Assembly (NCBI RefSeq): GCF_015330125.1
Contig: NZ_JADDXR010000002.1
Span: 2,306,685-2,370,684, forward strand
Reading direction: 5' to 3'
From: Zobellia nedashkovskayae
Lineage (GTDB): Bacteria; Bacteroidota; Bacteroidia; Flavobacteriales; Flavobacteriaceae
DNA: 64,000 nucleotides
Shown here: piece after piece, positions 13,576-47,636 of the stretch
Numbering within the stretch: position 1 is the first letter of the stretch
How the letters are laid out: every line of letters begins with the position of its first letter
Translations under genes and position numbers: made by a program
The notes under the pieces: model-generated
What the model saw: only the letters and a program-made list of their open reading frames with translations
What the model was told of the DNA's origin: nothing
Database searches by the model: none

Positions 13576-15042
13576 TTATACCCTTGGTAAATCTCCTTCG
13601 CCTTTTAAAGGTAGAGCAGATTCTCCCATTAGATACTTATCTACATGATAAGCGGCTTGACGACCTTCTGAAATAGCCCAAACAATTAGTGATTGACCAC
13701 GTCTTTGGTCACCCGCAGCAAATATCCCTGGTACATTGGTCTTATAATCTTCTTCGCTAGCTTTGATATTAGTTCTTGCATCTGCTTCAATGCCTAATTG
13801 CTCAGCAATCGTCATTTCGGAACCAGTAAATCCTAATGCTAAAAGAGCTAGTTCACATTTCCATTCTTTCTCCGTGCCAGGAACTTCTTTTAGTTGTGGT
13901 CGTTGTCCTGGTGTTTTAATCCATTCCACTTCAGAAGTAACTAGTCCGGTAAGATTACCATCTTTATCCCCTAAGAATTTTTTGGTAGATATGCTGAAAA
14001 AACGTTCGGCACCTTCCTTGTGAGAAGTACTCGTTTTTAAACGCATAGGCCAAAAAGGCCAAGGCTGTCCTTCGGGTCTTTCAGTAGTGGACATAGGCAT
14101 AATCTCAAAGTTTGAAACGGAAGTTGCTCCGTGTCTAATTGAAGTACCTATGCAGTCAGAACCAGTATCACCTCCACCAATAACAACAACATCTTTGCCA
14201 GTGGCCATTATTTCATTTTCAAAGGTTTTAACACCATCTACTCTGCGGTTGTTTTGTGGTAAGAAATCCATAGCCTGTACAACACCTTTTAGGTCTGCAC
14301 CTTCAATAGGTAGATTTCTGCGAACAGTAGCGCCTCCTGAAAGTACTACGGCATCAAAATCATTCTGAAGTTGTTCGCCAGAAATGTCTTTTCCCACATT
14401 AACTCCACATTTAAACTCAATACCTTCTTCTTCAAGAACCTTAAGTCTACGGTCTATGACATTTTTTTCCATCTTAAAGTCGGGAATACCATAACGTAAT
14501 AATCCGCCTGGTTTTTCGTCTCTTTCAAAAACAGTAACATGGTGTCCAGCACGGTTTAGTTGTTGTGCGGCAGCAAGACCTGCAGGCCCACTACCTACTA
14601 CAGCTACTTTTTTGTCCGTTCTCTTACCTGGTGGTTCAGCAACTATCCATCCTTTTTTAAAGGCGGTTTCTACAATATTCTTCTCAATATTCTCTATAGT
14701 AACTGGGTCTTCATTGATTCCCAAAACACAAGCCTCTTCGCACGGTGCCGGACAAAGTCTGCCGGTAAATTCCGGGAAGTTGTTCGTTGAGTGCAAAATT
14801 GTAGCTGCTTTTTCCCATTTTCCGCGGTATACCGCATCATTAAAGTCTGGAATCAAGTTACCTAATGGACAACCACTATGGCAAAAAGGAATGCCACAGT
14901 CCATACATCTTGCACCTTGATCTTTAAGTTCTGGCTCATTCAATGGAACGGTGAACTCATGATAACTTTTTACGCGTTCTTCAACAGGCGCGTATGATTC
15001 TACTTTTCTATCGAATTCCAAAAATCCTGTAATCTTTCCCAT
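13576..15042 (-). CDS. gltD: Glutamate synthase small subunit
   Basis: 488 residues, the usual length for GltD. The N-terminal cysteine cluster CMDCGIPFCHSGCPLG binds Fe-S centres. VAVVGSGPAGLAAAQQLNRAG is split by the FAD GxGxxG fold, and VVVIGGGDTGSDCIG is the NADPH-binding fold. The C-terminus has GIFAAGDQRRGQSLIVWAI. The subunit passes electrons from NADPH to GltB, where 2-oxoglutarate and glutamine are converted to two glutamates. It follows gltB with a 9-bp gap in the same operon, which ends at the hairpin near 13509-13541. Confidence 0.97.
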   Translation of the reverse strand: MGKITGFLEFDRKVESYAPVEERVKSYHEFTVPLNEPELKDQGARCMDCGIPFCHSGCPLGNLIPDFNDAVYRGKWEKAATILHSTNNFPEFTGRLCPAPCEEACVLGINEDPVTIENIEKNIVETAFKKGWIVAEPPGKRTDKKVAVVGSGPAGLAAAQQLNRAGHHVTVFERDEKPGGLLRYGIPDFKMEKNVIDRRLKVLEEEGIEFKCGVNVGKDISGEQLQNDFDAVVLSGGATVRRNLPIEGADLKGVVQAMDFLPQNNRRVDGVKTFENEIMATGKDVVVIGGGDTGSDCIGTSIRHGATSVSNFEIMPMSTTERPEGQPWPFWPMRLKTSTSHKEGAERFFSISTKKFLGDKDGNLTGLVTSEVEWIKTPGQRPQLKEVPGTEKEWKCELALLALGFTGSEMTIAEQLGIEADARTNIKASEEDYKTNVPGIFAAGDQRRGQSLIVWAISEGRQAAYHVDKYLMGESALPLKGEGDLPRV

Positions 15043-15051
15043 TTCTCGATT

Positions 15052-18000
15052 TTAAATAGTTTCTAATTTTTCTCTTTCCATACGTAGTAATGCCTGTTTG
15101 TATTCTTCAGGTAAGACCTTGATAAATTTAGGTAGGCAATCTTCCCATTTCTCTAAAATACGCTGTGCTAGCGGACTCAAAGTAGAGTTATAGTGACTTT
15201 CTATTAAATCTTTCAATTCTTTAATGTCATTATCTTCAGTAACCTCCAATAAATTTAGGTCAGTGTTGTTACATTTCTTCTTAAAGGTGCCATTCTGGTC
15301 ATATATGAAGGCTATTCCACCACTCATACCTGCTCCAAAGTTTCTTCCTACCTCTCCAAGAATTACGGCAACACCTCCGGTCATGTATTCACAACCATGA
15401 TCACCAATACCTTCTACTACCGCTTTGGCACCTGAGTTACGAACGCAGAAACGTTCACCTGCCCTACCATTTATATAAGCGCGTCCAGCCGTTGCTCCAT
15501 AGAGGGTAACGTTACCGGTAATTACGTTGTCTTCCGGTACAATGGTACATTTTTCAGGAACCTTAATAACCAATTTAGCACCAGATAATCCTTTGCCAAG
15601 GTAATCGTTGGTATTTCCGTTAACGGTCATTGTTAAACCTCTAGTTGCAAAAGCACCAAAGCTTTGTCCTGCGGAACCTGTAAAATTTAATCTCAAAGTG
15701 TTTATTGGTAACCCTTGTGCACCGTATACTTTGGAAATTTCATTACTGATAATCGCTCCAACAGCTCTATCCGTATTTTTAATAGGAAATTCTAACGTTA
15801 GTTTTTCTTTTCTAAATAAAGATGGATTTGCCTTTGCGATAATTTCAAATTCTATTGACTTATCAATATCGTGTGTCTGTTGCTGTGTGTTGTAAAACTT
15901 GGTTCCTGCCGGTACATCAACCTGATATAAAATCGGAGTTAAATCGATTCCTGCAGATTTATAATGATCAATTGCTTTCTTACGGTCTAATTTCTGAACC
16001 TGACCAACCATTTCGTTGATAGTTCTGAAACCTAACTGCGCCATGATCTCACGTAATTCTTGTGCTACAAAATACATGTAGTTAACAACGTGTTCCGGCT
16101 TGCCAGCAAATTTCTTACGTAGTTCTGGGTTTTGTGTGGCGATACCTACTGGGCAGGTATTTAAATGACAAACCCGCATCATAATACAACCTGATGCAAC
16201 AAGTGGAGCCGTTGCAAAACCAAACTCTTCCGCACCTAGTAAACAGGCTACAGCAACGTCACGACCAGTTTTAAGCTGACCGTCACATTCAAGAACTATC
16301 CTATTTCTAAGGTCGTTCATGACCAAAGTCTGCTGTGCTTCCGCAATACCAAGTTCCCAAGGTAGACCAGCATGTTTTAATGATGTTAATGGAGAAGCTC
16401 CAGTACCTCCGTCAAATCCGGAAATAAGAACAACATCTGCTTTTGCTTTAGAAACCCCAGCGGCAACAGTACCTACACCAACCTCGGAAACCAGTTTCAC
16501 GTTTATACGCGCTTCTCTGTTAGCCGATTTTAAATCGTATATCAATTGCGAAAGATCTTCAATTGAGTAAATATCGTGATGTGGTGGAGGTGAAATCAAT
16601 CCTACATAAGGAGTGGAGTTTCTAGTTTTAGCAATGGATGGGTTAACCTTTGGACCAGGTAGTTGACCACCTTCGCCTGGTTTAGCACCCTGTGCCATCT
16701 TAATTTGTATTTCTTTTGCATTGGTCAAATAATCGGAAGTTACACCGAAACGACCTGAGGCAACTTGTTTTATAGCACTGTTCCTCCAATCACCTGTGGC
16801 ATTTTTGTAGAAACGCTCAGCATCTTCTCCGCCTTCACCAGAATTACTTTTTCCGCCAATACGGTTCATGGCAATAGCCAAATTTTCGTGAGCTTCTTTA
16901 CTAATAGATCCGTAAGACATTGCTCCGGTCTTGAAACGTTTTACGATTTCCGTCCACGGTTCTACATCTTCTAAAGGAATAGGGTCATAGTTAGAGAATT
17001 CAAACAATCCACGAATAGTCATCAAGTTTTTAGACTGTTCGTTCACCATTTGAGCGTACTCTTTGTAGGTGTCATTTTCGTTACCACGTACAGCTTTCTG
17101 TAATTTGGCTACAGTTAACGGGTTGAACATATGTTTTTCTCCATCACGTCTCCAGCGGTATTCTCCACCAATTTCGAGATCTAGATTAGCCGCAATTTCT
17201 TGTGTGCTGAACGCTTTCTTATGGCGCTTGGCTACTTCTTTTTCAATTTGATACAAACCTATACCTTGAATACGTGTAGGTGTGTTTGGTAGATATTTTT
17301 CTACTACTTTGGTGTTGATGCCAATACACTCAAAAAGTTGAGAACCTCGGTAAGAATTCAAAGTAGAAATACCAATTTTGTTCATTACCTTAAGAATACC
17401 TGTTCCAACAGCTTTGTTATAATTCTTAATGGCTTCTTCAGCAGTGAAATCGGTAATATTGTTTTCTTCTATTTGTTCACCAATAATTTCGTTTACCAAG
17501 TACGGATTAATAGCACTGGCGCCAAAACCGAACAGTAGACAGAAGTGGTGTACTTCTCTAGGTTCAGCAGATTCTATTATGATACTTAGTTTATTACGTT
17601 TGCCTAGGCGCTGAAGGCCACTGTTTACGTAAGAGCATGCTAAAAGCGCAGGTATTGGCGCCATCGTTTCGCTTACGCTTCTATCTGATAAAATAATAAT
17701 ATTAGCATCCTGATCAATAGCTTTGGAAGCTTGGTCTAAAACAGACTCTAATGCATCTTCTATTCCATTATGGCCTCTTTCTATTTCGTATAGCATAGGA
17801 ATGGAAACCACTTTGTAATCTGGACTAGCGTCGTAATTTTTGATTTTATCTAAATCTTCTTTGGATATAACCGGATTCTGAATCTTCAGTTTACGACAAT
17901 GTAATTCAGAGAATTCGAATATATTATGATCACTACCTAAAGTAAGACTGATATCAGTAATCAATTCTTCACGAATACCATCCAACGGAGGGTTGGTAAC

Positions 18001-19560
18001 CTGTGCGAATAACTGTTGGAAATAATTGTAAATCAGCTGTGGACGCTCAGAAAGCACCGCAATTGGTGTATCCGAGCCCATAGAGCCAATTGGCTCCTTG
18101 GCAGTTTTACCCATTGGAAGGATAATAGTATTGATATCCTCTAGGGTATAACCAAAAACAGATTTACGTTTTTCAAGAGAAGCTTCGCCTAAAAATAACG
18201 GACAATCATTATAAGGTATATTCTTTAAGTGAACTAGGTTATTGTCTAACCATTTTTTATATGGATGGCGAGCGGCAATCTCTTCTTTAATTTCTTCGTC
18301 ATTTATGATGCGGCCTTCCTCCATATTTACCAAGAACATTTTTCCTGGCTCAAGTCTTCCATGAAACTCTACGTTTTCAGGAGCGATGTCTAGTACACCA
18401 GTTTCCGATGACATGATTACATAATCATTTTTGGTAACTGTGTATCTAGATGGGCGTAGACCATTACGGTCAAGTACTGCTCCAATATAGTTTCCATCGG
18501 TAAAAGGTACGGATGCTGGACCATCCCACGGTTCCATCATACATGAATGATACTCGTAGAAAGCTCTTTTAGCTTCCGACATATCTGGGTTTTTCTCCCA
18601 TGCTTCTGGTATCAATACCATCATTACTTCAGGTAGAGACCTTCCTGTCATCAATAAAAGTTCTACAACCATGTCCATAGTGGCAGAATCTGATTTTCCG
18701 GGAAGTATAATAGGCAAGATCTTTTTTATTTCATCTCCAAACCAATCACTTTTCAATAATTCTTCTCGTGAGCGCATTCTTGATACGTTACCACGAAGTG
18801 TGTTTATCTCACCATTGTGGCACATGTAGCGAAAAGGTTGTGCCAAATCCCAAGTAGGGAAGGTGTTAGTGGAAAAACGTTGGTGAACCAATGATAAACG
18901 GGTTACCACACGAGGATCCATTAGGTCTTTATAATATAGGCTGATGTCTTTAGGCATCAAAAGCCCTTTAAATATGATAATTTTTGTAGAAAGACTAGGT
19001 ACATAAAAGAACTGGCTTTCCGAAAGTTTTGAATTTATTACCGCATGCTCCGTGACTTTTCTTGCGATAAACAATTTAAGGTTGAAATTAAAATAGTCTT
19101 GCTCAGGATTTTCCTTAGCAATGAAAATCTGCTTTACAAAAGGCTCGGTTTCCATAGCAACACGGCCAGGAATAGATCTGTTTACCGGAACATCTCTCCA
19201 TCCTAATAAATTTAAGCCTTGTTTCTTTATGTTTTCTTCAAAAGTAGAAATACAGAAATCACGCTGATTATCTTTTTGTGGTAAGAATATGTTACCTACT
19301 GCATACTCACCTGGTTCAGGAAGTTCAAAATCACAAACCGCTTTAAAGAAATCATGTGGTACATCTATAAGGATACCCGCACCATCACCAGTCTTTCCAT
19401 CAGAACTTACCGCTCCACGGTGCTCTAATTTATCTAGTATCTCTAGTGCTTTATGGATGATATCATTAGACTTCTTTCCTTTAAGGCTACAGATAAAACC
19501 TGCGCCACAGTTGTCATGTTCAAATTCCGGTAGGTACAACCCTTGCTTCTTCAACGTCAT
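15052..19560 (-). CDS. gltB: Glutamate synthase large subunit
   Basis: 1502 residues, full length. A short propeptide of 17 residues ends at DN, followed by CGAGFICSLKG, where Cys18 is the expected N-terminal nucleophile of the glutaminase domain after processing. The synthase domain has SGEGGEDAERF, GAKPGEGGQLPGPKV, PPPHHDIYSIEDL and VLISGFDGGTGASP. The Fe-S/FMN region has CIMMRVCHLNTCPVGIATQ, and the C-terminal beta-helix has GxxG repeats (TGGVAVILGEVGRNFGAGMSGG). It makes glutamate from 2-oxoglutarate and glutamine nitrogen together with gltD. A -7 box lies only 17 nt before the start codon, so the leader is short. Confidence 0.97.
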   Translation of the reverse strand: MTLKKQGLYLPEFEHDNCGAGFICSLKGKKSNDIIHKALEILDKLEHRGAVSSDGKTGDGAGILIDVPHDFFKAVCDFELPEPGEYAVGNIFLPQKDNQRDFCISTFEENIKKQGLNLLGWRDVPVNRSIPGRVAMETEPFVKQIFIAKENPEQDYFNFNLKLFIARKVTEHAVINSKLSESQFFYVPSLSTKIIIFKGLLMPKDISLYYKDLMDPRVVTRLSLVHQRFSTNTFPTWDLAQPFRYMCHNGEINTLRGNVSRMRSREELLKSDWFGDEIKKILPIILPGKSDSATMDMVVELLLMTGRSLPEVMMVLIPEAWEKNPDMSEAKRAFYEYHSCMMEPWDGPASVPFTDGNYIGAVLDRNGLRPSRYTVTKNDYVIMSSETGVLDIAPENVEFHGRLEPGKMFLVNMEEGRIINDEEIKEEIAARHPYKKWLDNNLVHLKNIPYNDCPLFLGEASLEKRKSVFGYTLEDINTIILPMGKTAKEPIGSMGSDTPIAVLSERPQLIYNYFQQLFAQVTNPPLDGIREELITDISLTLGSDHNIFEFSELHCRKLKIQNPVISKEDLDKIKNYDASPDYKVVSIPMLYEIERGHNGIEDALESVLDQASKAIDQDANIIILSDRSVSETMAPIPALLACSYVNSGLQRLGKRNKLSIIIESAEPREVHHFCLLFGFGASAINPYLVNEIIGEQIEENNITDFTAEEAIKNYNKAVGTGILKVMNKIGISTLNSYRGSQLFECIGINTKVVEKYLPNTPTRIQGIGLYQIEKEVAKRHKKAFSTQEIAANLDLEIGGEYRWRRDGEKHMFNPLTVAKLQKAVRGNENDTYKEYAQMVNEQSKNLMTIRGLFEFSNYDPIPLEDVEPWTEIVKRFKTGAMSYGSISKEAHENLAIAMNRIGGKSNSGEGGEDAERFYKNATGDWRNSAIKQVASGRFGVTSDYLTNAKEIQIKMAQGAKPGEGGQLPGPKVNPSIAKTRNSTPYVGLISPPPHHDIYSIEDLSQLIYDLKSANREARINVKLVSEVGVGTVAAGVSKAKADVVLISGFDGGTGASPLTSLKHAGLPWELGIAEAQQTLVMNDLRNRIVLECDGQLKTGRDVAVACLLGAEEFGFATAPLVASGCIMMRVCHLNTCPVGIATQNPELRKKFAGKPEHVVNYMYFVAQELREIMAQLGFRTINEMVGQVQKLDRKKAIDHYKSAGIDLTPILYQVDVPAGTKFYNTQQQTHDIDKSIEFEIIAKANPSLFRKEKLTLEFPIKNTDRAVGAIISNEISKVYGAQGLPINTLRLNFTGSAGQSFGAFATRGLTMTVNGNTNDYLGKGLSGAKLVIKVPEKCTIVPEDNVITGNVTLYGATAGRAYINGRAGERFCVRNSGAKAVVEGIGDHGCEYMTGGVAVILGEVGRNFGAGMSGGIAFIYDQNGTFKKKCNNTDLNLLEVTEDNDIKELKDLIESHYNSTLSPLAQRILEKWEDCLPKFIKVLPEEYKQALLRMEREKLETI

Positions 19561-21291: not shown

Positions 21292-22524
21292 ATGAAAGAG
21301 TTATTACAAGTATATGAGGATAAGGCGCCTGAAATTGTCTTTAATTGGAAAGATAGTGAGACCGAAGCCGAAGGGTGGACAGTTATAAATTCCCTTAGAG
21401 GTGGAGCGGCAGGAGGTGGCACTAGAATGAGAGAAGGGTTGGATATGAATGAAGTGCTTTCTCTGGCAAAAACCATGGAAGTTAAGTTTACGGTTTCGGG
21501 TCCGCCAATAGGTGGTGCCAAATCAGGAATAAACTTCGATCCTAATGATCCAAGAAAAAAAGGAGTGCTTGAGCGCTGGTACCATGCGGTATCGCCATTA
21601 TTGAAAAGTTACTATGGTACGGGTGGAGATCTCAATGTAGATGAGATTCACGAAGTTATTCCTATTACTGAAGATGCCGGTGTTTGGCATCCTCAAGAAG
21701 GAGTTTTTAACGGGCATTTTAAACCGAGCGAAGCAGACAAGATAAACAGAATTGGACAATTGCGTCTTGGGGTAATCAAAGCTTTGGAGAATACTAATTA
21801 TTCTCCTGAAGTTTCAAGAAAGTATACTGTTGCTGATATGATTACAGGTTATGGCGTTGCTGAGGCTGTAAAACACTATTATGACGTTTACGGTGGTAGT
21901 GTTGTCGGAAAAAGAGCGGTAGTCCAGGGTTTTGGAAACGTAGGTAGTGCCGCTGCTTACTATTTAGCCCAAATGGGAGCTAAAATAGTAGGTATTATTG
22001 ATAGAGCTGGAGGCGTAATCAAAGAAGAAGGATTTTCTTTTGACGAAATAAAAACCTTCTTTCTTAATAAAGATGGGAATAATCTAATCGCGAGTGCAGA
22101 TGAAATGATCCCCTTTAAGGAAATTAATGAACGTATATGGTCTTTGCAAACAGAAATTTTCGCACCTTGTGCTGCATCTCGCTTGGTAACTAAAGATCAG
22201 ATTAGTAGTTTGATCGATACAGGTTTGGAAGTTATTTCATGCGGGGCCAATGTGCCTTTTGCAGATAAAGAAATTTTCTTTGGACCTATAATGGAATATA
22301 CGGATGGTAAGGTTAGCCTAATTCCAGATTTTATTTCCAATTGCGGGATGGCCCGTGTTTTTGCTTACTTCATGGAAAAAAGAGTAGGTATTGACGATGA
22401 GCTTATCTTTAGTGACACTTCGGAGACCATCCGAAAAGCTATTTTGAATATTTATAAACAAAACCCCTCGAAAGAGAATATCAGCCAAACGGCATTTGAA
22501 ATTGCATTGAAACAACTAATATAA
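21292..22524 (+). CDS. Glu/Leu/Phe/Val-family amino-acid dehydrogenase
   Basis: 410 residues. The N-terminal catalytic domain has LRGGAAGGGTRMREGLD and GPPIGGAKSGINFDP with the substrate-binding Lys; GTGGDLNVDEIHEVIP carries the catalytic Asp region. The Rossmann domain has VVQGFGNVGSAAAYYLAQMGA and IFAPCAASRLV. It reversibly deaminates an amino acid, glutamate or a branched-chain one, to the 2-oxo acid with NAD(P). The family name is certain but the substrate is not. It is first in a tight array with nhaD (11-bp gap), exbB, exbD, tonB and folC, behind a full promoter and a long structured leader. Confidence 0.92.
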   Translation: MKELLQVYEDKAPEIVFNWKDSETEAEGWTVINSLRGGAAGGGTRMREGLDMNEVLSLAKTMEVKFTVSGPPIGGAKSGINFDPNDPRKKGVLERWYHAVSPLLKSYYGTGGDLNVDEIHEVIPITEDAGVWHPQEGVFNGHFKPSEADKINRIGQLRLGVIKALENTNYSPEVSRKYTVADMITGYGVAEAVKHYYDVYGGSVVGKRAVVQGFGNVGSAAAYYLAQMGAKIVGIIDRAGGVIKEEGFSFDEIKTFFLNKDGNNLIASADEMIPFKEINERIWSLQTEIFAPCAASRLVTKDQISSLIDTGLEVISCGANVPFADKEIFFGPIMEYTDGKVSLIPDFISNCGMARVFAYFMEKRVGIDDELIFSDTSETIRKAILNIYKQNPSKENISQTAFEIALKQLI

Positions 22525-27443: not shown

Positions 27444-28814
27444 CTAGCCTTTTCCGATTACAATTTTTAGCTTCTCGCTATTCTCTTGTATATTTTTGGC
27501 CGTTTTGGCACTTACACCTGTTTGCCATAAATAAACACGCTTAAGGCTGCTTATTTTTTCTATATCGGGTAGGCAGGCATCAGTTACTTTGGTACCATAT
27601 AAATTAAGTGCTTCTAAATGCTTCAATTTGGATAAATGAGCCACTCCTTTATCCGATATTTCTGTTTTTTCTAATTGTAGACGGGTAAGATTAGAAAACT
27701 GTGAAACACTAGAAAGCCATTCATCTGTAACATTACTATTGGCAAGAGATAGCCATGTAATATATTCTTTTATTTTTTCAAGTTCAGATAGTTTTTCTTT
27801 GGTCAGATCGGAGCCAGAGTATTTGATGTCTAATAATGAGTTTTCAGGACCCAATGTTTTAACTTCAAAACCTTGTTGCACCAGACTTGATAGTTGGGTG
27901 CTGTCCAATTTTTGAAGTTGTACTGTTTCGTACCAGGCTTTGGGATTGGTGTCTAAACCATAGCGCCTAAGTAAAACGGGTTTTATATTTTCCGTTATTT
28001 TTAAGCTGGTAAGTGCCCCTTCAAAAAGAGCACCTTGTTCAATCCACCATTCCACAGTTTTAATCTCATCGTAGGTGAGGGCATTGTTGGTGGGGGGCAT
28101 GAATTTAATATTCTTTGGTGGGAGCGTAATCCTTCTGAACAGCTCACTTTCTTCCGTACTTCCTGCTACAATAACATTTTCACTATCACCGCCCATTCGT
28201 AAAGAATCCAGATGGCTCATATTAAGTCCGCCTCTTTTGATTTCATCATTATGACAACCAACGCATTTAGCCTCAAAAATTGGTGCTACCAAATTGGCAT
28301 ACACCAGAACGGAATCAGGGTTAGCAAACTTTGGAAGAGCGTCTTTGTTTTCCGTGCTGCCTAATAGTTTTTGAATGGGAGCAGGAGCATATTCCGTTAA
28401 ATAAGTTTCACCGTGTGTCAAATTCCCACCCTTGTGGCCTTCAATAAACAACATAGCTAATAAGAGGATGTTAAAGCCGTGCTGTAGTTTAATGGGGAAA
28501 GCCTTTGGTTTACTTTTTAAATACCACCCTATGAATGCAACGACAACAAGGGCTATGCCAAGCCATCTATGTGAAAATAGATACTCTTCTTCGTAGAGGC
28601 CTGTTTCGCCCAAGAACCAACCTGTAACAGCAGCTCCCGCGGCACACAATGCTCCTAATAACCAGGCTATAGGAATTAATTTGCTTTTAACCTTGGTTTT
28701 TTTGAGGCTTTCGTACCATTCTAATGCAATGGCTAGAAAGAGAAAGCCAATGGGCATGTGTACAAAGAGGGGATGAAAACGACCTATAAATGTTGTGAAT
28801 TCTAGTGCAATCAT
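27444..28814 (-). CDS. DUF2231 membrane domain fused to a planctomycete-type cytochrome c and leucine-rich repeats
   Basis: 456 residues. Residues about 1-135 hold four membrane helices of a DUF2231-like domain (HPLFVHMPIGFLFLAIALEW). Residues about 165-260 are a planctomycete-type cytochrome c domain with CVGCH at 184-188 and the following pattern GGLNMSHLDSLRMGG, PPKNIKFMPPT, IKTVEWWIEQGA. The C-terminal about 100 residues form short leucine-rich repeats (LTRLQLEKTEISDKGVAHLSKL; LEALNLYGTKVTD). The heme domain should face the periplasm. The role is unknown; it is not next to other respiratory genes. Confidence 0.82.
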   Translation of the reverse strand: MIALEFTTFIGRFHPLFVHMPIGFLFLAIALEWYESLKKTKVKSKLIPIAWLLGALCAAGAAVTGWFLGETGLYEEEYLFSHRWLGIALVVVAFIGWYLKSKPKAFPIKLQHGFNILLLAMLFIEGHKGGNLTHGETYLTEYAPAPIQKLLGSTENKDALPKFANPDSVLVYANLVAPIFEAKCVGCHNDEIKRGGLNMSHLDSLRMGGDSENVIVAGSTEESELFRRITLPPKNIKFMPPTNNALTYDEIKTVEWWIEQGALFEGALTSLKITENIKPVLLRRYGLDTNPKAWYETVQLQKLDSTQLSSLVQQGFEVKTLGPENSLLDIKYSGSDLTKEKLSELEKIKEYITWLSLANSNVTDEWLSSVSQFSNLTRLQLEKTEISDKGVAHLSKLKHLEALNLYGTKVTDACLPDIEKISSLKRVYLWQTGVSAKTAKNIQENSEKLKIVIGKG

Positions 28815-40187: not shown

Positions 40188-41237
40188 ATGAAAAAGTCTT
40201 TTCTGTTTTTAGCCGGTATGTTGGTCCTATCATGCGGTTCTTCAAAAATTGATGAATCGGTAACCCTTCAAAGTGAAGAAGCGGTAAAATTTGATCGCAG
40301 TTTAATGGAAGTACCCAAGAAGGCAGATGATCTTAGTGGTATAGATAGTGCGATAAGTACGTCGCAAAATCAATTTTGTAGTGCAGAAAAAGTAGGTGCT
40401 ATCATGAGCTTTTTAGCTTCAGATGAACTGCGAGGTAGAGATACTGGTAGTGAAGGGATAGAAAAGGCGGCGGAGTTTATAGAAAATATTTTTTCAAAGA
40501 ATAATTTAAAGCCATATTTTGAAACGTATAGAGATAACCTTGCTGACTATGAAAAACCTGCATTCAATGTAGTAGGCGTGGTTGAGGGTAATGACCCTGA
40601 ATTAAAAAATGAGTTTGTAATCATTGGTGCTCACTATGATCACATAGGTCTGATTGCAGAGGAGAATGGAGATAAGATAGCTAATGGCGCAAATGATAAT
40701 GCCACAGGTACAACCACCGTATTAGAGCTGGCACGTTATTTTGGTGAAGCAAAAACCAACAAACGTAGTATGATGTTCGTGCTTTTTACGGCTGAAGAAA
40801 AAGGATTACTCGGTTCAAAACATTTGGCGCAAAAACTTAAAGAGGAAAATCTTAATCTCTATGCGATGATTAACTATGAAATGGTAGGTGTTCCATTGGT
40901 CGGTAAAGATTATTTGGCGTATTTGACAGGCTTTGAAGAATCGAACATGGCTGATGTAGCAAATAGCTATTCAGATGACACCTATGCAGGTTTCCTTCCA
41001 AAAGCAAAAGAGTTTAATCTTTTCAAAAGGTCTGATAATTATCCTTTTCATGAAGCTTTTGGTGTGCCGTCTCAGACTTTTAGTACGTTTGACTTCACGA
41101 ACTTTAATCACTATCATAAAGTAGGTGATGAGCTTTCAGAAATGGATTTTGGACATATGGCCAATTTAATAAATAAGAGTATCCCAGTAATTGAGGGAGT
41201 TGTTAATGCACCAACCAAAGAAATTAAATATAACTAA
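40188..41237 (+). CDS. M28-family zinc metallopeptidase lipoprotein
   Basis: 349 residues from MKKSFLFLAGMLVLSC, with lipobox Cys16. A longer frame starts within the upstream terminator and is rejected. M28 zinc-site motifs are VIIGAHYDHIG, NGANDNATGTTTVLEL, VLFTAEEKGLLGS and the late HYHKVGDE. The catalytic Glu lies in AEE. It is an exopeptidase anchored in the envelope. Its stop overlaps the following SDR start codon by one base, so the two are translated together. Confidence 0.92.
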   Translation: MKKSFLFLAGMLVLSCGSSKIDESVTLQSEEAVKFDRSLMEVPKKADDLSGIDSAISTSQNQFCSAEKVGAIMSFLASDELRGRDTGSEGIEKAAEFIENIFSKNNLKPYFETYRDNLADYEKPAFNVVGVVEGNDPELKNEFVIIGAHYDHIGLIAEENGDKIANGANDNATGTTTVLELARYFGEAKTNKRSMMFVLFTAEEKGLLGSKHLAQKLKEENLNLYAMINYEMVGVPLVGKDYLAYLTGFEESNMADVANSYSDDTYAGFLPKAKEFNLFKRSDNYPFHEAFGVPSQTFSTFDFTNFNHYHKVGDELSEMDFGHMANLINKSIPVIEGVVNAPTKEIKYN

Positions 41238-41917
41238 TGGCAAATGTTATCATAACGGGGTCAAGCAGAGGTATAGGTTTTGAACTAGCCCAATTGTTTG
41301 CTAATGACGGTCATAAAGTTTTGGCTTTATCGCGTAACGACAAACCTATTTCCGAATTAGGCCACAAGAATATTTTCAGTTTTCCTTTTGATCTTGGCAA
41401 TCCTTCTGATTTTAAGAAGATGGAAGATTTTGTTGATGAAAATTTTAAAACCGTAGACTTGCTTATTAATAATGCAGGAAGGTTATTGAACAAACCTTTT
41501 CTAGAAACTATAGTTGAGGAGTTCGAGGCCGTTTATAAAGTAAACGTATTTGGGGTTGCGGAAATGACAAGAAGAGTTACTCCTAAAATGCCTAAAGATG
41601 GGCATGTCATAACTATTAGTTCTATGGGCGGGGTTCAAGGTAGCGTTAAGTTTCCTGGCCTGTCTGCTTACAGTTCTAGTAAAGGAGCTGTTATTACACT
41701 AACAGAACTTTGGGCGGAAGAATTCAAAGAAACCGGACCTTCATTTAACGTGTTGGCATTAGGGGCGGTACAGACCGAGATGTTAGAAGAAGCGTTCCCG
41801 GGTTATGAAGCCCCGACTACTGCTTTGCAAATGGCTCAATATATCAAAAACTTTGCGCTAACGGGGCATCAGTTTTACAACGGCAAACTTCTGCAGGTTA
41901 GCAATAGTACGCCATAG
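41237..41917 (+). CDS. Short-chain dehydrogenase/reductase
   Basis: 226 residues. The NAD(P)-binding motif is ITGSSRGIGFELA, NNAG is at LLINNAGRL, the catalytic Ser lies in TISSMGG and Tyr-Lys in YSSSKGA. It is a classical SDR of unknown substrate. It overlaps the M28 peptidase gene by one base and converges on the EutBC fusion gene two bases away. Its link with the peptidase is positional only. Confidence 0.92.
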   Translation: MANVIITGSSRGIGFELAQLFANDGHKVLALSRNDKPISELGHKNIFSFPFDLGNPSDFKKMEDFVDENFKTVDLLINNAGRLLNKPFLETIVEEFEAVYKVNVFGVAEMTRRVTPKMPKDGHVITISSMGGVQGSVKFPGLSAYSSSKGAVITLTELWAEEFKETGPSFNVLALGAVQTEMLEEAFPGYEAPTTALQMAQYIKNFALTGHQFYNGKLLQVSNSTP

Positions 41918-41919
41918 TA

Positions 41920-44235
41920 TTATATAACAGTAAACATTCTATCTAAAATGGTCTTAGTTTGTTTTGCTGCAATTTTAGGTGTCAATGAAGTGTCTGATAT
42001 GCCTGAAACTACCTTTGATATATTGTGGTCTACAGTGCCACTATTCGTCCAAGTGCTAGTTGGAGCTGTAGTTAGGTAGGCTGAAAAATTATGGTGTCCA
42101 GAACCGGGTCTTTCTCCTATAATATGCACAATACCTTTACTTTCCGAGGTGTTTCTTTTTCCAAAAAGTATTTCTCCGCAAGCGTACCCTGCACGTACTC
42201 TGCCATGTTTAATTACAATGTTCTTTGAGCTCACCGAGTATCCACTATTTTTTAAAGTAGTTTTTAAGCTATCGATATATGGTATAAGATGACCGTCATC
42301 CATCAGTGCTCTTGGGTTAAGGCCATCAGATATTATGAATTGAATATCGGGTATTTGTTCAGCCCACGAAATGCGAAGATTTTCAAGTCGTCTAATAGCG
42401 GTTTCAGCTAAGATTTCGCCAGATTCTGGATGGTAAACATAATCTTTCCTATCTGTTGAGTTCGTCGTTATAGCTATTGCTTCTGGTACGGTTGCCATAA
42501 AGTCAGGGGTTATCTCTGTCCATAAACTTATTTTGGCATCCTCATAGAGTAACCTTACTTCTCTCTCTAGTTCAGGTTCAAGATCGTAAATATTCTTTCC
42601 ATACCCTTCGGCTAACGGAATACCCCGTTGTCGTATGTTGTGCATTGTAGTTTTTCCCTCATCGTAGATATCCAACATGCTTCGCTTGTCTCCCTTAGCT
42701 TTGCAATATTTGTAGAAAACCCAAAGTGGATCTCCAAAATGCTTGGTAGGTTTGTTGTTTGAATCTATTATTTCAATTTCTTTAAAAAAGTCCCACATGG
42801 CATCATTTACTTTATAGCCAAACTGTTCACGTATGCGAATATGGTCAGAGAAAGAAGTTGTAAGGTAGCTTAACATAGGGTCGTTCTTTGTGGGCAATGC
42901 CATCAAATAAGCTGGATTGGCAGGCATAATTTGTGAGATACACCAATCTAAATCTTCAAGGCTAACATCCATATGTAATGTTGAGCAAATGTCCAAACCA
43001 ATGGTGAGACCATGAAGTTTACCCATGACCGTATCTTCAAGACAACATCGAACTAACTGTTCTTTTGTCTTGAAAACCTCAGGTCCTATAAACCCAGCTA
43101 CATCATTTACAAGAAACCAAGGAGTGTCTTCTTTAGGTTTGCTATTTTTGACCTGAGCTTTTAATGCTCTTATGAATCCGTATTTACGTGCTTCGTGCAA
43201 CACCATGTCAAAACCTTTTCCATGGCCATTCGTGAAATCTGCTCCTTGTCCGGTTTCGGCATATAGTCCAAATTGTTTAGTTCGATTTGCGACATGTTGT
43301 TGCATTTTTTCAATACTAACGTCAAAAGTGGTGTTAGCATCTACAGTACCTGCTAGACTTTGAAACCAAATGCCCGTGGTACCAGGGTATAGTTTTTCTA
43401 CTTCTGCTTGAACGTCTATATGAGATAGTACGCAATTAGGTAATGTTTCTTCAAGTTTAAAAACACTTAAAACTTCATATAAGGTCTTTTCGATGTTTGC
43501 AACCGATTCTATTTCACTTGATACTGGGTTGGTGCCTAATACTAGGTCACCTACACCATAAGACCATGCGTCAAATACTTGCCAGAGAATGTCTTCTTCG
43601 TTATCGGTAGGTGAGTTTGGTTGAATTCGAGCACTCAAGTAGCCTTTGCTTCCAATGTTACTTTTTGGCAGAGGGTTAAATACCTTTTGACCAACCTGTA
43701 TCAGCTCTTCGTTGGTCATTAATTTTACTAAGCAGCCGATAATGTCACTTTGAAGTGCTGGCATTATTCTTTTAATTTCACTTTCAGATTTTTTTAAGAT
43801 GAATGATTTTAATTGGTTCATTGTAAAGTTATCGACTTTGCGATTTCTTTCTGTAGATGAACCGATTATATCCGTAATGCCATCTTGATAGACCGATATA
43901 TCATTTAGCTCATTAATTTTTGTATTGCCAAGTAAAGTTTTTGCTCTCATTCGAGAAATTGAGTCAGCGGCCGCTACACCTAAACTTAAGTCTCCTTCTT
44001 TGAACTCATTAGCGGCTCCTATAATTTGTCTATGCAATGTGATGTTATAATCACCGTTTAGACGCTTTATATATTCAAAAATAGATTCACCTTTATGTAC
44101 TTCTGAAAGCGTTACACTTATGTTTGGTGTTACTGAAGTAAGTTGGCCATATAGTTGATTTTGACTTAAAAATGCTGCTGAAGCCCCGAGTAAACCCATT
44201 CTCGTTAAGAATTGCTTTCTGCTAATACTGCCCAT
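41920..44235 (-). CDS. Ethanolamine ammonia-lyase, EutB-EutC fusion with Tat-like leader
   Basis: 771 residues. Residues about 1-31 carry SRKQFLTRMGLLGASAAFL, a twin-arginine-like leader (RK variant). About 47-520 match EutB: SARIQPNSPTD (Arg203, Gln205), VLGTNPVSSE (Asn236), FQSLAGT, YAETGQGA (Glu327), GFIGPEVF (Phe382) and TIGLDIC (Asp415) keep the known active-site positions. About 605-771 match EutC: FIISDGLNPRAL, HGRVRAGYACGEILFGK and HIIGERPGSGH. The enzyme would split ethanolamine to ammonia and acetaldehyde with adenosylcobalamin. No eut shell, reactivase (eutA) or kinase gene is nearby. The start ATG and export are inferred. Confidence 0.88.
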   Translation of the reverse strand: MGSISRKQFLTRMGLLGASAAFLSQNQLYGQLTSVTPNISVTLSEVHKGESIFEYIKRLNGDYNITLHRQIIGAANEFKEGDLSLGVAAADSISRMRAKTLLGNTKINELNDISVYQDGITDIIGSSTERNRKVDNFTMNQLKSFILKKSESEIKRIMPALQSDIIGCLVKLMTNEELIQVGQKVFNPLPKSNIGSKGYLSARIQPNSPTDNEEDILWQVFDAWSYGVGDLVLGTNPVSSEIESVANIEKTLYEVLSVFKLEETLPNCVLSHIDVQAEVEKLYPGTTGIWFQSLAGTVDANTTFDVSIEKMQQHVANRTKQFGLYAETGQGADFTNGHGKGFDMVLHEARKYGFIRALKAQVKNSKPKEDTPWFLVNDVAGFIGPEVFKTKEQLVRCCLEDTVMGKLHGLTIGLDICSTLHMDVSLEDLDWCISQIMPANPAYLMALPTKNDPMLSYLTTSFSDHIRIREQFGYKVNDAMWDFFKEIEIIDSNNKPTKHFGDPLWVFYKYCKAKGDKRSMLDIYDEGKTTMHNIRQRGIPLAEGYGKNIYDLEPELEREVRLLYEDAKISLWTEITPDFMATVPEAIAITTNSTDRKDYVYHPESGEILAETAIRRLENLRISWAEQIPDIQFIISDGLNPRALMDDGHLIPYIDSLKTTLKNSGYSVSSKNIVIKHGRVRAGYACGEILFGKRNTSESKGIVHIIGERPGSGHHNFSAYLTTAPTSTWTNSGTVDHNISKVVSGISDTSLTPKIAAKQTKTILDRMFTVI

Positions 44236-44349: not shown

Positions 44350-44357
44350 TATTTTTG
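44350..44357 (+). promoter_or_regulatory. -7 box for the SprT-like gene
   Basis: TATTTTTG matches TAnnTTTG. It ends only 6 nt before the GTG taken as the start and overlaps an upstream TTG, arguing against the TTG. The transcript could be nearly leaderless. Confidence 0.45.
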
Positions 44358-44363
44358 TCCGGA

Positions 44364-44966
44364 GTGAGAAGTGTGTTACAGAAATATCTCCCCGAAAGGG
44401 CTATAGGGTCATGTCTAGAGTTGATTCAGAAAACAGGTGTAAATCTGAAGGTGGTTAATGAAAGGGTTACACGCCATGGAGATTACCGTAGGATGCCTAA
44501 CGGAATGCATCAGATAACCGTAAATGCAAATCTCAATAAATATAGGTTTCTAATAACGCTAATACATGAAATTGCTCATTTGGTGGCTTTTGAAAAGTAT
44601 GGTAGAAGTATAAAACCGCATGGGGCAGAATGGAAGCAAATTTTTCAATATCTGATGTTGCCGTTCATTCGACCAGAAATATTTCCCACTCAATTGTTAC
44701 CCCTTTTGGCAAATCATTTTAAGAATCCAAAAGCAAGTAGTAGTACAGATGCCAGATTGTCAATAGCCCTGAAACATTTTGATGAACAACAAACAAATAG
44801 AACTTACGTTTTTGAAGTGCCGTTAGGTAGTATTTTTCGTATACACAACGGAAAATTATATAAAATGGGAAATAGAAGGGTAAAGCGGTATGAGTGTGTA
44901 GAAGTAGCTACCGGCCGTATGTATCTTTTTCAACCTAATGCTGAGGTTGAATTAGTTTTTGAATGA
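44364..44966 (+). CDS. SprT-like zinc metalloprotease-domain protein
   Basis: 200 residues from a GTG start. An in-frame TTG nine bases upstream falls in a -7 box, so the GTG is preferred. It begins VRSVLQKYLPERAI. The HEIAH zinc motif is followed by FEKYGRSIKPHGAEWKQIF, the SprT-like pattern. A C-terminal domain has FRIHNGKLYKMGNRRVKRYECVEV. Spartan/SprT relatives cleave DNA-crosslinked proteins in eukaryotes; the bacterial role is unclear. It is divergent from the EutBC gene, 128 bp away. Confidence 0.85.
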   Translation: MRSVLQKYLPERAIGSCLELIQKTGVNLKVVNERVTRHGDYRRMPNGMHQITVNANLNKYRFLITLIHEIAHLVAFEKYGRSIKPHGAEWKQIFQYLMLPFIRPEIFPTQLLPLLANHFKNPKASSSTDARLSIALKHFDEQQTNRTYVFEVPLGSIFRIHNGKLYKMGNRRVKRYECVEVATGRMYLFQPNAEVELVFE

Positions 44967-46154: not shown

Positions 46155-47636
46155 ATGAGCGATAAACTGAATCAAGATAATATTACGCCCACCGAGGAAC
46201 CAACAGAGAGTCAAGAGGCCGTTAAGCAGGATGCTAAAGGTCTTTGGGAAAGCTTGCGAAGATTCATGCGTGAATTATTGGATATTCGTGAGAATACGGA
46301 TCAAGAGGCCACCAAGGAAGCTATAATTGCGGATATACCCTTTAAAGGGCATACATCGTGGATTTTGATTTGTTCTATTTTTATCGCATCAATTGGTTTA
46401 AATGCAAATTCTACGGCAGTAGTTATTGGTGCCATGTTAATCTCGCCACTAATGGGTCCTATTTTAGGTATAGGGATGTCTTTGGCCATTAATGATATTG
46501 ACACGTTAAGACGATCGCTAAAGAATTTTGCGGTTATGGTTGTGCTCAGCGTATTGACTGCATACCTGTTCTTTGAATTTTTCCCTATTCAAGATGAATC
46601 TTCAGAACTTCTTGCGCGTACTGCGCCGGATATTCGTGATGTGCTTATTGCCTTTTTTGGTGGTTTGGCACTGGTAATAGCAAGGGCAAAAAAAGGTACG
46701 ATAGCGAGTGTTATTTTTGGTGTGGCTATTGCTACGGCTTTAATGCCACCCCTTTGTACCGTGGGTTTTGGTCTGGCAATAGGTAATCCGGGTTACGCTA
46801 TTGGAGCTATGTATTTATTTACGATAAATACAATATTTATTGCTCTGGCAACTTTTTTGACCATCAAACTTTTGAAGTTTCCAATGGTGCGTTATGCTAA
46901 TTCTGCAAAGAGAAGGCGTATTGCACGTATTGCCTCTATTGTAGCTTTATTGGTAATGATACCTGCTGGAAGGACTTTCTACAAGGCTTTTCAAGAATCT
47001 ATGTTTAAAAAGCAGGCAAATGAGTTTGTAAACGAAACAATAGGTAGGTATAAATTTACGGATGGTGGAAGATATCTTGATAATTTTACCAGTATTAAGT
47101 ATAATAAGGGAGAAAAGCCAGTGATTGAATTGGTTTGTATGGGTAATGAAGTTATACCAGCAAATATAATTTCAACATGGAATACGATGTTGAAAGAAGA
47201 TGATGATTACAAACGTCTTACTAATACGGAACTCCACGTTATTCAAGGCTCACAGAATGAGCAAGTAGATCAATTAAAATATGTTAATGAGCTTTATGAA
47301 TCCCAGAAAAACCAATTGTCCAGTAAAGCGGAGAAAATAGCTTTCTTAGAAGCTGAGGTTACTCGTTTGCAAAAGAATGCTTCTCAACAAAAGCAAATAC
47401 CTTTTAAAGATATAAGCGCTGAGGCCAAGGCTAATTATGAGAATTTAGCCTCGTTGCAATATGATAATGCGGTAATTACCGATTTTAATAAGACGGATAC
47501 CCTAACTATTTTTGAAGTGAAATGGAAACAAGGTTTAGCTTCCAGTAAAATTGAATCAGAAAACAAGAGGGTTTACGAATGGTTAAAAGTACGATTGAAG
47601 GATACTACCATTCAATTGCGTGGAGCTTCTAAATAG
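46155..47636 (+). CDS. DUF389 membrane protein
   Basis: 493 residues. A hydrophilic start of about 65 residues is followed by about six membrane helices between 70 and 275, with DUF389 motifs NSTAVVIGAMLISPLMGPILG and LVIARAKKGTIASVIFGVAIATALMPPLCT. The long soluble C-terminal region (about 285-493) includes a short coiled coil (QKNQLSSKAEKIAFLEAEVTRLQ). The function is unknown. It follows manC closely and converges on mlaF 12 bp away. Confidence 0.88.
   Translation: MSDKLNQDNITPTEEPTESQEAVKQDAKGLWESLRRFMRELLDIRENTDQEATKEAIIADIPFKGHTSWILICSIFIASIGLNANSTAVVIGAMLISPLMGPILGIGMSLAINDIDTLRRSLKNFAVMVVLSVLTAYLFFEFFPIQDESSELLARTAPDIRDVLIAFFGGLALVIARAKKGTIASVIFGVAIATALMPPLCTVGFGLAIGNPGYAIGAMYLFTINTIFIALATFLTIKLLKFPMVRYANSAKRRRIARIASIVALLVMIPAGRTFYKAFQESMFKKQANEFVNETIGRYKFTDGGRYLDNFTSIKYNKGEKPVIELVCMGNEVIPANIISTWNTMLKEDDDYKRLTNTELHVIQGSQNEQVDQLKYVNELYESQKNQLSSKAEKIAFLEAEVTRLQKNASQQKQIPFKDISAEAKANYENLASLQYDNAVITDFNKTDTLTIFEVKWKQGLASSKIESENKRVYEWLKVRLKDTTIQLRGASK

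Follow-up and report, generated by a model that had tools for sequence, protein, structure and literature searches.

A fused EutB-EutC protein with an intact active site and a leader in nearly all relatives: a probable exported ethanolamine ammonia-lyase

Gene, domains and active site

The window, by which we mean the whole stretch of 64,000 nucleotides analysed, carries on its minus strand a single frame in which a leader, a EutB part and a EutC part follow one another (Table 1). A preliminary description had claimed this 771-residue frame and its joining of the two subunits, and both claims stood: the frame is open on the minus strand, the first plus-strand frame across the same positions has 54 stops, and Pfam finds both the EutB domain (446.3 bits, E 1.5e-133, cut-off 25) and the EutC domain (110.5 bits, E 1.1e-31, cut-off 25.8). 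The structure prediction that the same description had proposed gave complete EutB and EutC folds in a single confident model, in which residues 1-3 and 14-37 fall under a pLDDT of 50. The protein passes the NCBI EutB subfamily model (578.5 bits, cut-off 554) but misses the NCBI EutC equivalog cut-off (76.6 against 230 bits), so that we class it as a divergent variant rather than an equivalog, and its fusion and leader are easily missed in annotation.

Table 1. Positions of the fused gene, its parts and neighbours in the window, and of genes discussed at related loci
Feature	Sequence	Coordinates	Strand	Description
Fused EutBC gene	window	41920..44235	minus	771 aa; leader, EutB and EutC in single frame
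N-terminal leader	window	44143..44235	minus	residues 1 to ~31; SRKQFL motif at 5-10; weakly hydrophobic stretch
EutB part	window	42742..44034	minus	residues 68-498
Active-site stretch R203, Q205, N236, E327, F382, D415	window	42991..43629	minus	kept in 48/48 members
Inter-domain segment between Pfam matches	window	42559..42741	minus	residues 499-559; predicted mostly helical
EutC part	window	41932..42558	minus	residues 560-768
Short-chain dehydrogenase	window	41237..41917	plus	neighbour outside the system, converging with EutBC gene
SprT-like protein	window	44355..44966	plus	neighbour outside the system, diverging from EutBC gene
TorF/Gcw_chp-like putative porin gene	L116	2948-3718		
TorF/Gcw_chp-like putative porin gene	L117	1781-2608		
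TorF/Gcw_chp-like putative porin gene	L126	566-1354		
TorF/Gcw_chp-like putative porin gene	L128	3496-4296		
TorF/Gcw_chp-like putative porin gene	L131	434-1348		
TorF/Gcw_chp-like putative porin gene	L135	460-1311		
TorF/Gcw_chp-like putative porin gene	L137	2232-3032		
TorF/Gcw_chp-like putative porin gene	L138	473-1276		
Leaderless fused EutBC gene	L113	4273-6483		with eutA
Leaderless fused EutBC gene	L114	6686-9025		with eutA
Leaderless fused EutBC gene	L115	2395-4722		with eutA

Relatives were collected by a scan of genome contigs with five flavobacterial members, which found 158 loci, 80 of which were kept. Most of these come from Bacteroidota, with others from Balneolota, Ignavibacteriota, Desulfobacterota, Riflebacteria, Planctomycetota and Myxococcota, and many are from MAGs. 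The main EutB tree included 47 of the 80 together with the window protein, and a very long branch with full support separates these 48 fused rows from the rest; the structure alignment covered 55 of the 80 plus the window protein. Within the window's family the fused form was found in 5 of 149 genomes, its own (G000) included, and separate subunits in one, and the only further member of its genus among the genomes searched had no EutBC form. Among 395 Bacteroidota-group genomes, EutB lies in a frame of 453-486 aa in 11 and in a fused frame in two. A second search, with a profile against 395 genomes of the phylum of G536, matched 36 genomes, 18 of which gave hits above 1000 bits; L139 and a fragment from G883, whose starts lie outside the sequence seen, were left out, and L121 and L065 are one and the same gene. 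In the open-licence literature, which limits the scope of this result, no phrase matched a EutB-EutC fusion, and no fused or exported ethanolamine ammonia-lyase was among the matches listed.

G000 has one copy of the fused gene, and both of its neighbours lie on the plus strand and are transcribed apart from it. Counts of promoter-like and terminator-like sites were inside the shuffle range. Across the 80 loci, common neighbours among the 30 largest clusters listed occur mainly within close relatives, in groups of at most four loci such as L008-L011, which have the same flanks as the window gene; a few larger clusters on that list resemble common families at mixed positions. The flank shared with L008-L011 includes a DUF389 membrane protein (46155-47636). 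Elsewhere in the window, and not adjoining the lyase gene, are genes of ammonia assimilation, namely a glutamate synthase large subunit with a small-subunit-like flavoprotein (13576-19560) and a Glu/Leu/Phe/Val dehydrogenase (21292-22524), as well as a membrane protein combining DUF2231 with a planctomycete-type cytochrome c domain (PSCyt1; 27444-28814), which is unusual in a flavobacterium.

We compared 48 members of the fused family and 13 other EutB proteins with E. coli EutB taken from the K-12 record. The six residues named in the preliminary description had been placed correctly: R203, Q205, N236, E327, F382 and D415 align with E. coli R160, Q162, N193, E287, F329 and D362, which we take to be the catalytic residues of EutB, and they are conserved in all 48 fused and all 13 other proteins. 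The equivalents of P194, S247, F258, V326, L402 and Y404 are likewise identical in both sets, and that of M392 is kept in 47 of the 48. The one EutB position checked that differs is S295, which is Thr in every fused member and Ser in the 13 others. Within EutC, R206, V207, E228, R229, P230, G231, G168 and L169 are kept in 48/48 and D167 in 47/48. Six positions, by comparison, are substituted in each of the 48 members (H99 to Y, R136 to H, R141 to E, S170 to N, D211 to Y and N261 to G), five of them invariant in 11/11 other EutC proteins and R141 in 10/11. These systematic EutC swaps, together with S295T in EutB, count against reading the protein as an exported lyase.

The leader and its variation across the family

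The N-terminus MGSISRKQFLTRMGLLGASAAFL is as first quoted, although the pair that had been taken for a twin arginine is R-K instead of R-R. Neither Tat model (TIGR01409, PF10518) matched the window protein at E<=1, and each matches 2 of 56 family members scanned. PMC7317946 describes a lysine in the twin-arginine pair as poorly tolerated, and given this and the RK motif, export of the window protein by Tat is likely rather than certain. TatC is present in G000 (218.3 bits). It was not found in two of the 17 genomes searched (G543 and G544), both of them MAGs with an exported copy bearing an RR leader; these MAGs may be incomplete.

We took a census of 81 N-termini, those of the window protein and the 80 loci, and a leader is present in 80. 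The S-R-[RK]-x-F-L motif is kept with either pair in 67 of these (RRx[FIL] in 26, RKx[FIL] in 41), whereas seven have a single or shifted arginine (for example SRDEFL, TRTDFL or SRNQFL), four of the seven with a lipobox Cys. Five (L065, L069, L072, L078 and L081) are Sec-like, a class assigned by eye and hydropathy; over 13 residues their hydropathy is 2.25-2.87, compared to 1.2 for the window leader. L049 is truncated by a contig end with a hydrophobic segment still visible, and L087, from a MAG, is the only member of the 81 without a leader, which counts against the export reading. Across the census, 36/81 have a Cys at the lipobox position that follows a G, A, S or N. Six of the 81 (L014, L015, L017, L025, L049 and L087) have no Met at the expected place, so that their starts are assumed; L025 has an ATG further along.

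All 18 hits above 1000 bits in the second search have a leader, 14 of them Sec-like and four RR (L132, L133, L134 and L136). No such leader was seen in the 13 other EutB proteins or the separate EutB of the second search, and separate EutB proteins in the phylum of G536 and in Bacteroidota start near the domain. Relatives lacking the leader, named at the outset as evidence against export, are therefore mostly absent (L087 among the 81, none of the 18), but a more distant leaderless fused copy does exist in G622, one of the second-search genomes. Mapped on the tree, the motif shows at least 10 changes of state, with RR and RK interchanging at least 5 times, and the lipobox Cys shows 13. A leader that is kept while its route keeps changing is the pattern expected from selection for export. 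Taken together, the conserved presence of a leader with a varying predicted route (RRxF, RKxF, lipoprotein-like or plain Sec) is the best evidence that these proteins are exported.

Partner genes, leaderless copies and cobalamin supply

The preliminary description had also noted that eut partner genes are missing, and this absence extends to the whole genome: G000 has no match to EutH, a BMC shell protein or the ethanolamine permease, and its one match to the EutA profile was rejected, since the protein is FtsA (TIGR01174, 370.6 bits). With BMC shell proteins, EutA and EutH all absent, G000 falls outside microcompartment-type ethanolamine utilisation. The value of a missing reactivase or microcompartment as a distinguishing trait did not survive comparison, however. 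Full-length EutA is found in only two of eight Bacteroidota genomes with separate EutBC; BMC shell proteins occur in two of 20 genomes, and six of those same eight lack them. In addition, A. baumannii EutBC is reported to be functional without EutA (PMC9426561). Reactivase absence is thus not distinctive, and we rejected the idea that a missing EutA signals something new.

Importers gave a different picture. The ethanolamine permease TIGR00908 passes its cut-off in four of 16 genomes (G245, G391, G395 and G535), in each of which it directly adjoins a separate EutB; weaker matches occur in G049, G144, G333 and others. EutH was found in 3 of 20 genomes (G208, G276 and G536). Counting EutH or an above-cut-off permease as an importer, 6/8 Bacteroidota genomes with separate EutBC have one compared to 0/6 with the exported form (G000, G011, G049, G108, G144 and G333), in a comparison not corrected for kinship. 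The traits that distinguish the exported form are its leader and the missing ethanolamine importer.

In Desulfobacterota, a porin-like gene encoding 257-305 aa lies directly upstream of eight exported genes on the same strand, at six of the 18 second-search loci and at two loci of G539 (L116 and L117). The encoded proteins match one another by BLAST in 28/28 pairs; three of the eight pass PF09694 (Gcw_chp; in NCBI, TorF putative porin), two match below the cut-off and three do not match. No such gene was seen near the Bacteroidota members checked.

Four genomes (G536, G539, G543 and G622) hold a second, leaderless fused EutBC and so permit a comparison within a genome. The leaderless copy adjoins eutA in three of the four, mostly with a transporter. 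In G536, eutH, eutA and a leaderless 736-aa fusion stand in a row (L113), and the leader-bearing copy lies at another locus (L118); in G539 the leaderless fusion is accompanied by eutA and an OpuA-like ABC system (L114), and there are two leader-bearing copies besides (L116 and L117); and in G543 eutA is next to the leaderless fusion (L115) with an MFS gene, a less close partner, adjoining on the opposite strand, the leader-bearing copy (L086) having RR and a lipobox. None of the leader-bearing copies in these three genomes is beside eutA or transporter partners. L113-L115 share with the window protein the joining of EutB and EutC in one chain, but lack a leader, adjoin eutA and are only 28-30% identical to exported members, compared to 62-72% to each other in the comparisons made; they make up a second type of fused EutBC. 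Their tree position was set aside as an argument for one or several fusions, since long branches meet there and the root was set on other EutB.

G622 differs, in that its leader-bearing copy (L123) is accompanied by a leaderless 723-aa fusion (L152:3105-5276) that is closer to exported members (36-39% identity) than L113-L115; in the 7.2 kb covered, the frames include neither eutA nor an importer. This copy may represent a stage that predates gain of the leader. The association of leaderless copies with partners therefore holds in three of four genomes, and the G622 case slightly lowers our confidence in the export reading, which we still consider probable. Three further leaderless fusions of 705-706 aa (L144, L145 and L146) have an N-terminus like that of ordinary EutB, and their fusion is perhaps a separate event. 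Since leaderless fused forms exist (L113-L115, L144-L146 and G622), fusion by itself is not distinctive and does not entail export, which weakens the notion that fusion means export.

With regard to the coenzyme, the genome search for B12 genes that had been suggested found a PduO-type adenosyltransferase in G000 (203.3 bits). No cobalamin riboswitch lies in the window, and riboswitch control of the EutBC gene was rejected: the sole cobalamin riboswitch of G000 (approximately L108:6679-6904, minus strand) is just upstream of a TonB receptor gene. The best model for this receptor is the B12 receptor, far below its cut-off (98.8 against 599.7), and nearby are a YncE-like beta-propeller lipoprotein, a frame resembling a periplasmic binding protein, and a FecCD permease. 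The segment L108:2794-6647, with the receptor, lipoprotein and binding-protein-like frame, resembles a surface corrinoid capture system. From the adenosyltransferase and the riboswitch-linked receptor locus we infer that adenosylcobalamin (AdoCbl) can probably be made inside the cell and that corrinoids probably reach the periplasm.

Predicted location, function and meaning

The protein is a EutB-EutC fusion with, as judged from sequence, an intact active site and a leader in nearly all relatives, and we consider it probable that it is exported to the cell envelope as a single-chain ethanolamine ammonia-lyase. The initial proposal of a stand-alone, possibly Tat-exported enzyme fits the computed evidence. 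In our best reading, in which activity, location and AdoCbl loading are what we infer, ammonia and acetaldehyde are freed from ethanolamine in the envelope without ethanolamine import. The leader would take the protein across the inner membrane, in the window organism most likely by Tat, as a folded cargo perhaps already holding AdoCbl from the PduO-type adenosyltransferase; in other lineages the same enzyme would be exported as a lipoprotein or by Sec, and fusion would let a single leader carry both subunits. Outside, AdoCbl-dependent cleavage of ethanolamine, one source of which would be the breakdown of phospholipids, would yield acetaldehyde and ammonia, and these would pass into the cell to serve as carbon and nitrogen. 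With the products rather than ethanolamine entering, an ethanolamine importer would be needless. Since Sec leaders would cross unfolded, relatives that have them would have to take up AdoCbl in the periplasm. Whether this amounts to a multi-phylum family of AdoCbl radical enzymes outside the cytoplasm, with a Sec branch loading periplasmic AdoCbl and a substrate that is not imported, seems to us evenly balanced.

The lysine of the RK pair, poorly tolerated by Tat according to PMC7317946, and the silence of both Tat models on the window protein raise the question of whether export occurs by Sec in the window organism too, as a soluble protein or lipoprotein, the SRK motif then being a vestige and the apo-protein acquiring its AdoCbl in the periplasm. 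The seven relatives with a single or shifted arginine, four of them with a lipobox Cys, and the one well-supported branch with Sec-like leaders would fit such a route. However, the window leader is weakly hydrophobic, as is typical of Tat, S-R-[RK]-x-F-L is kept in 67/81 with RR and RK interconverting repeatedly, and TatC is present in G000; we therefore regard Sec export here as somewhat unlikely. Retention in the cytoplasm, with the hydrophobic N-terminus anchoring the protein in the membrane or acting as some other targeting helix, gains from a cleavage site that is not clear-cut in the window protein, but lipobox cysteines in 36/81 and Sec-like leaders across a whole branch are sensible only with export, and G000 has neither BMC shell genes to which a helix could target nor an ethanolamine importer. 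We judge a cytoplasmic enzyme to be highly improbable.

A protein that is exported could still have diverged from ethanolamine ammonia-lyase, acting on another amino alcohol or binding cobamides in the envelope. Its identity to E. coli EutB of ~30%, the long branch on the EutB tree, the EutC score far under the NCBI equivalog cut-off, the six EutC swaps and S295T in EutB all point in this direction. The twelve EutB residues R160, Q162, N193, P194, S247, F258, E287, V326, F329, D362, L402 and Y404 are nevertheless identical in 48/48 members, which would be needless in a pure binder, and such a change of function appears improbable to us.

Known systems resemble this one in part. E. coli EutB and EutC (3abo, 5ysr) are two separate leaderless chains encoded beside eutA and microcompartment genes, in contrast with the window protein, which has ~30% identity to them and is fused, leader-bearing and alone. 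The reductive dehalogenase PceA is not known to be an AdoCbl radical enzyme. As a corrinoid enzyme that bears a Tat signal, it is a precedent for export of a cobamide protein, although it is unrelated to EutBC and its Tat signal is bound by a dedicated chaperone, PceT (PMC8905343). A. baumannii EutBC, likened here by description only, shares the lack of EutA and a microcompartment but is reported to have separate genes and a EutC without an N-terminal signal (PMC9426561).

New in this analysis are the breadth of the family, a leader retained through changes of route, the control that leaderless paralogues provide, the porin-like partner in a single phylum, and the finding that the absent importer, not the absent reactivase, is the telling gap. 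The existence of Tat-like and Sec-like branches, and of genomes with both leaderless and leader-bearing copies, makes the idea directly testable. To our knowledge, AdoCbl radical enzymes are treated as cytoplasmic. An exported family with a full active site would shift AdoCbl radical chemistry to the envelope; it would allow nitrogen to be scavenged from ethanolamine without an importer, and would pose the question of how, outside the cytoplasm, the enzyme is loaded with a coenzyme that is large and sensitive to light, and how that coenzyme is replaced.
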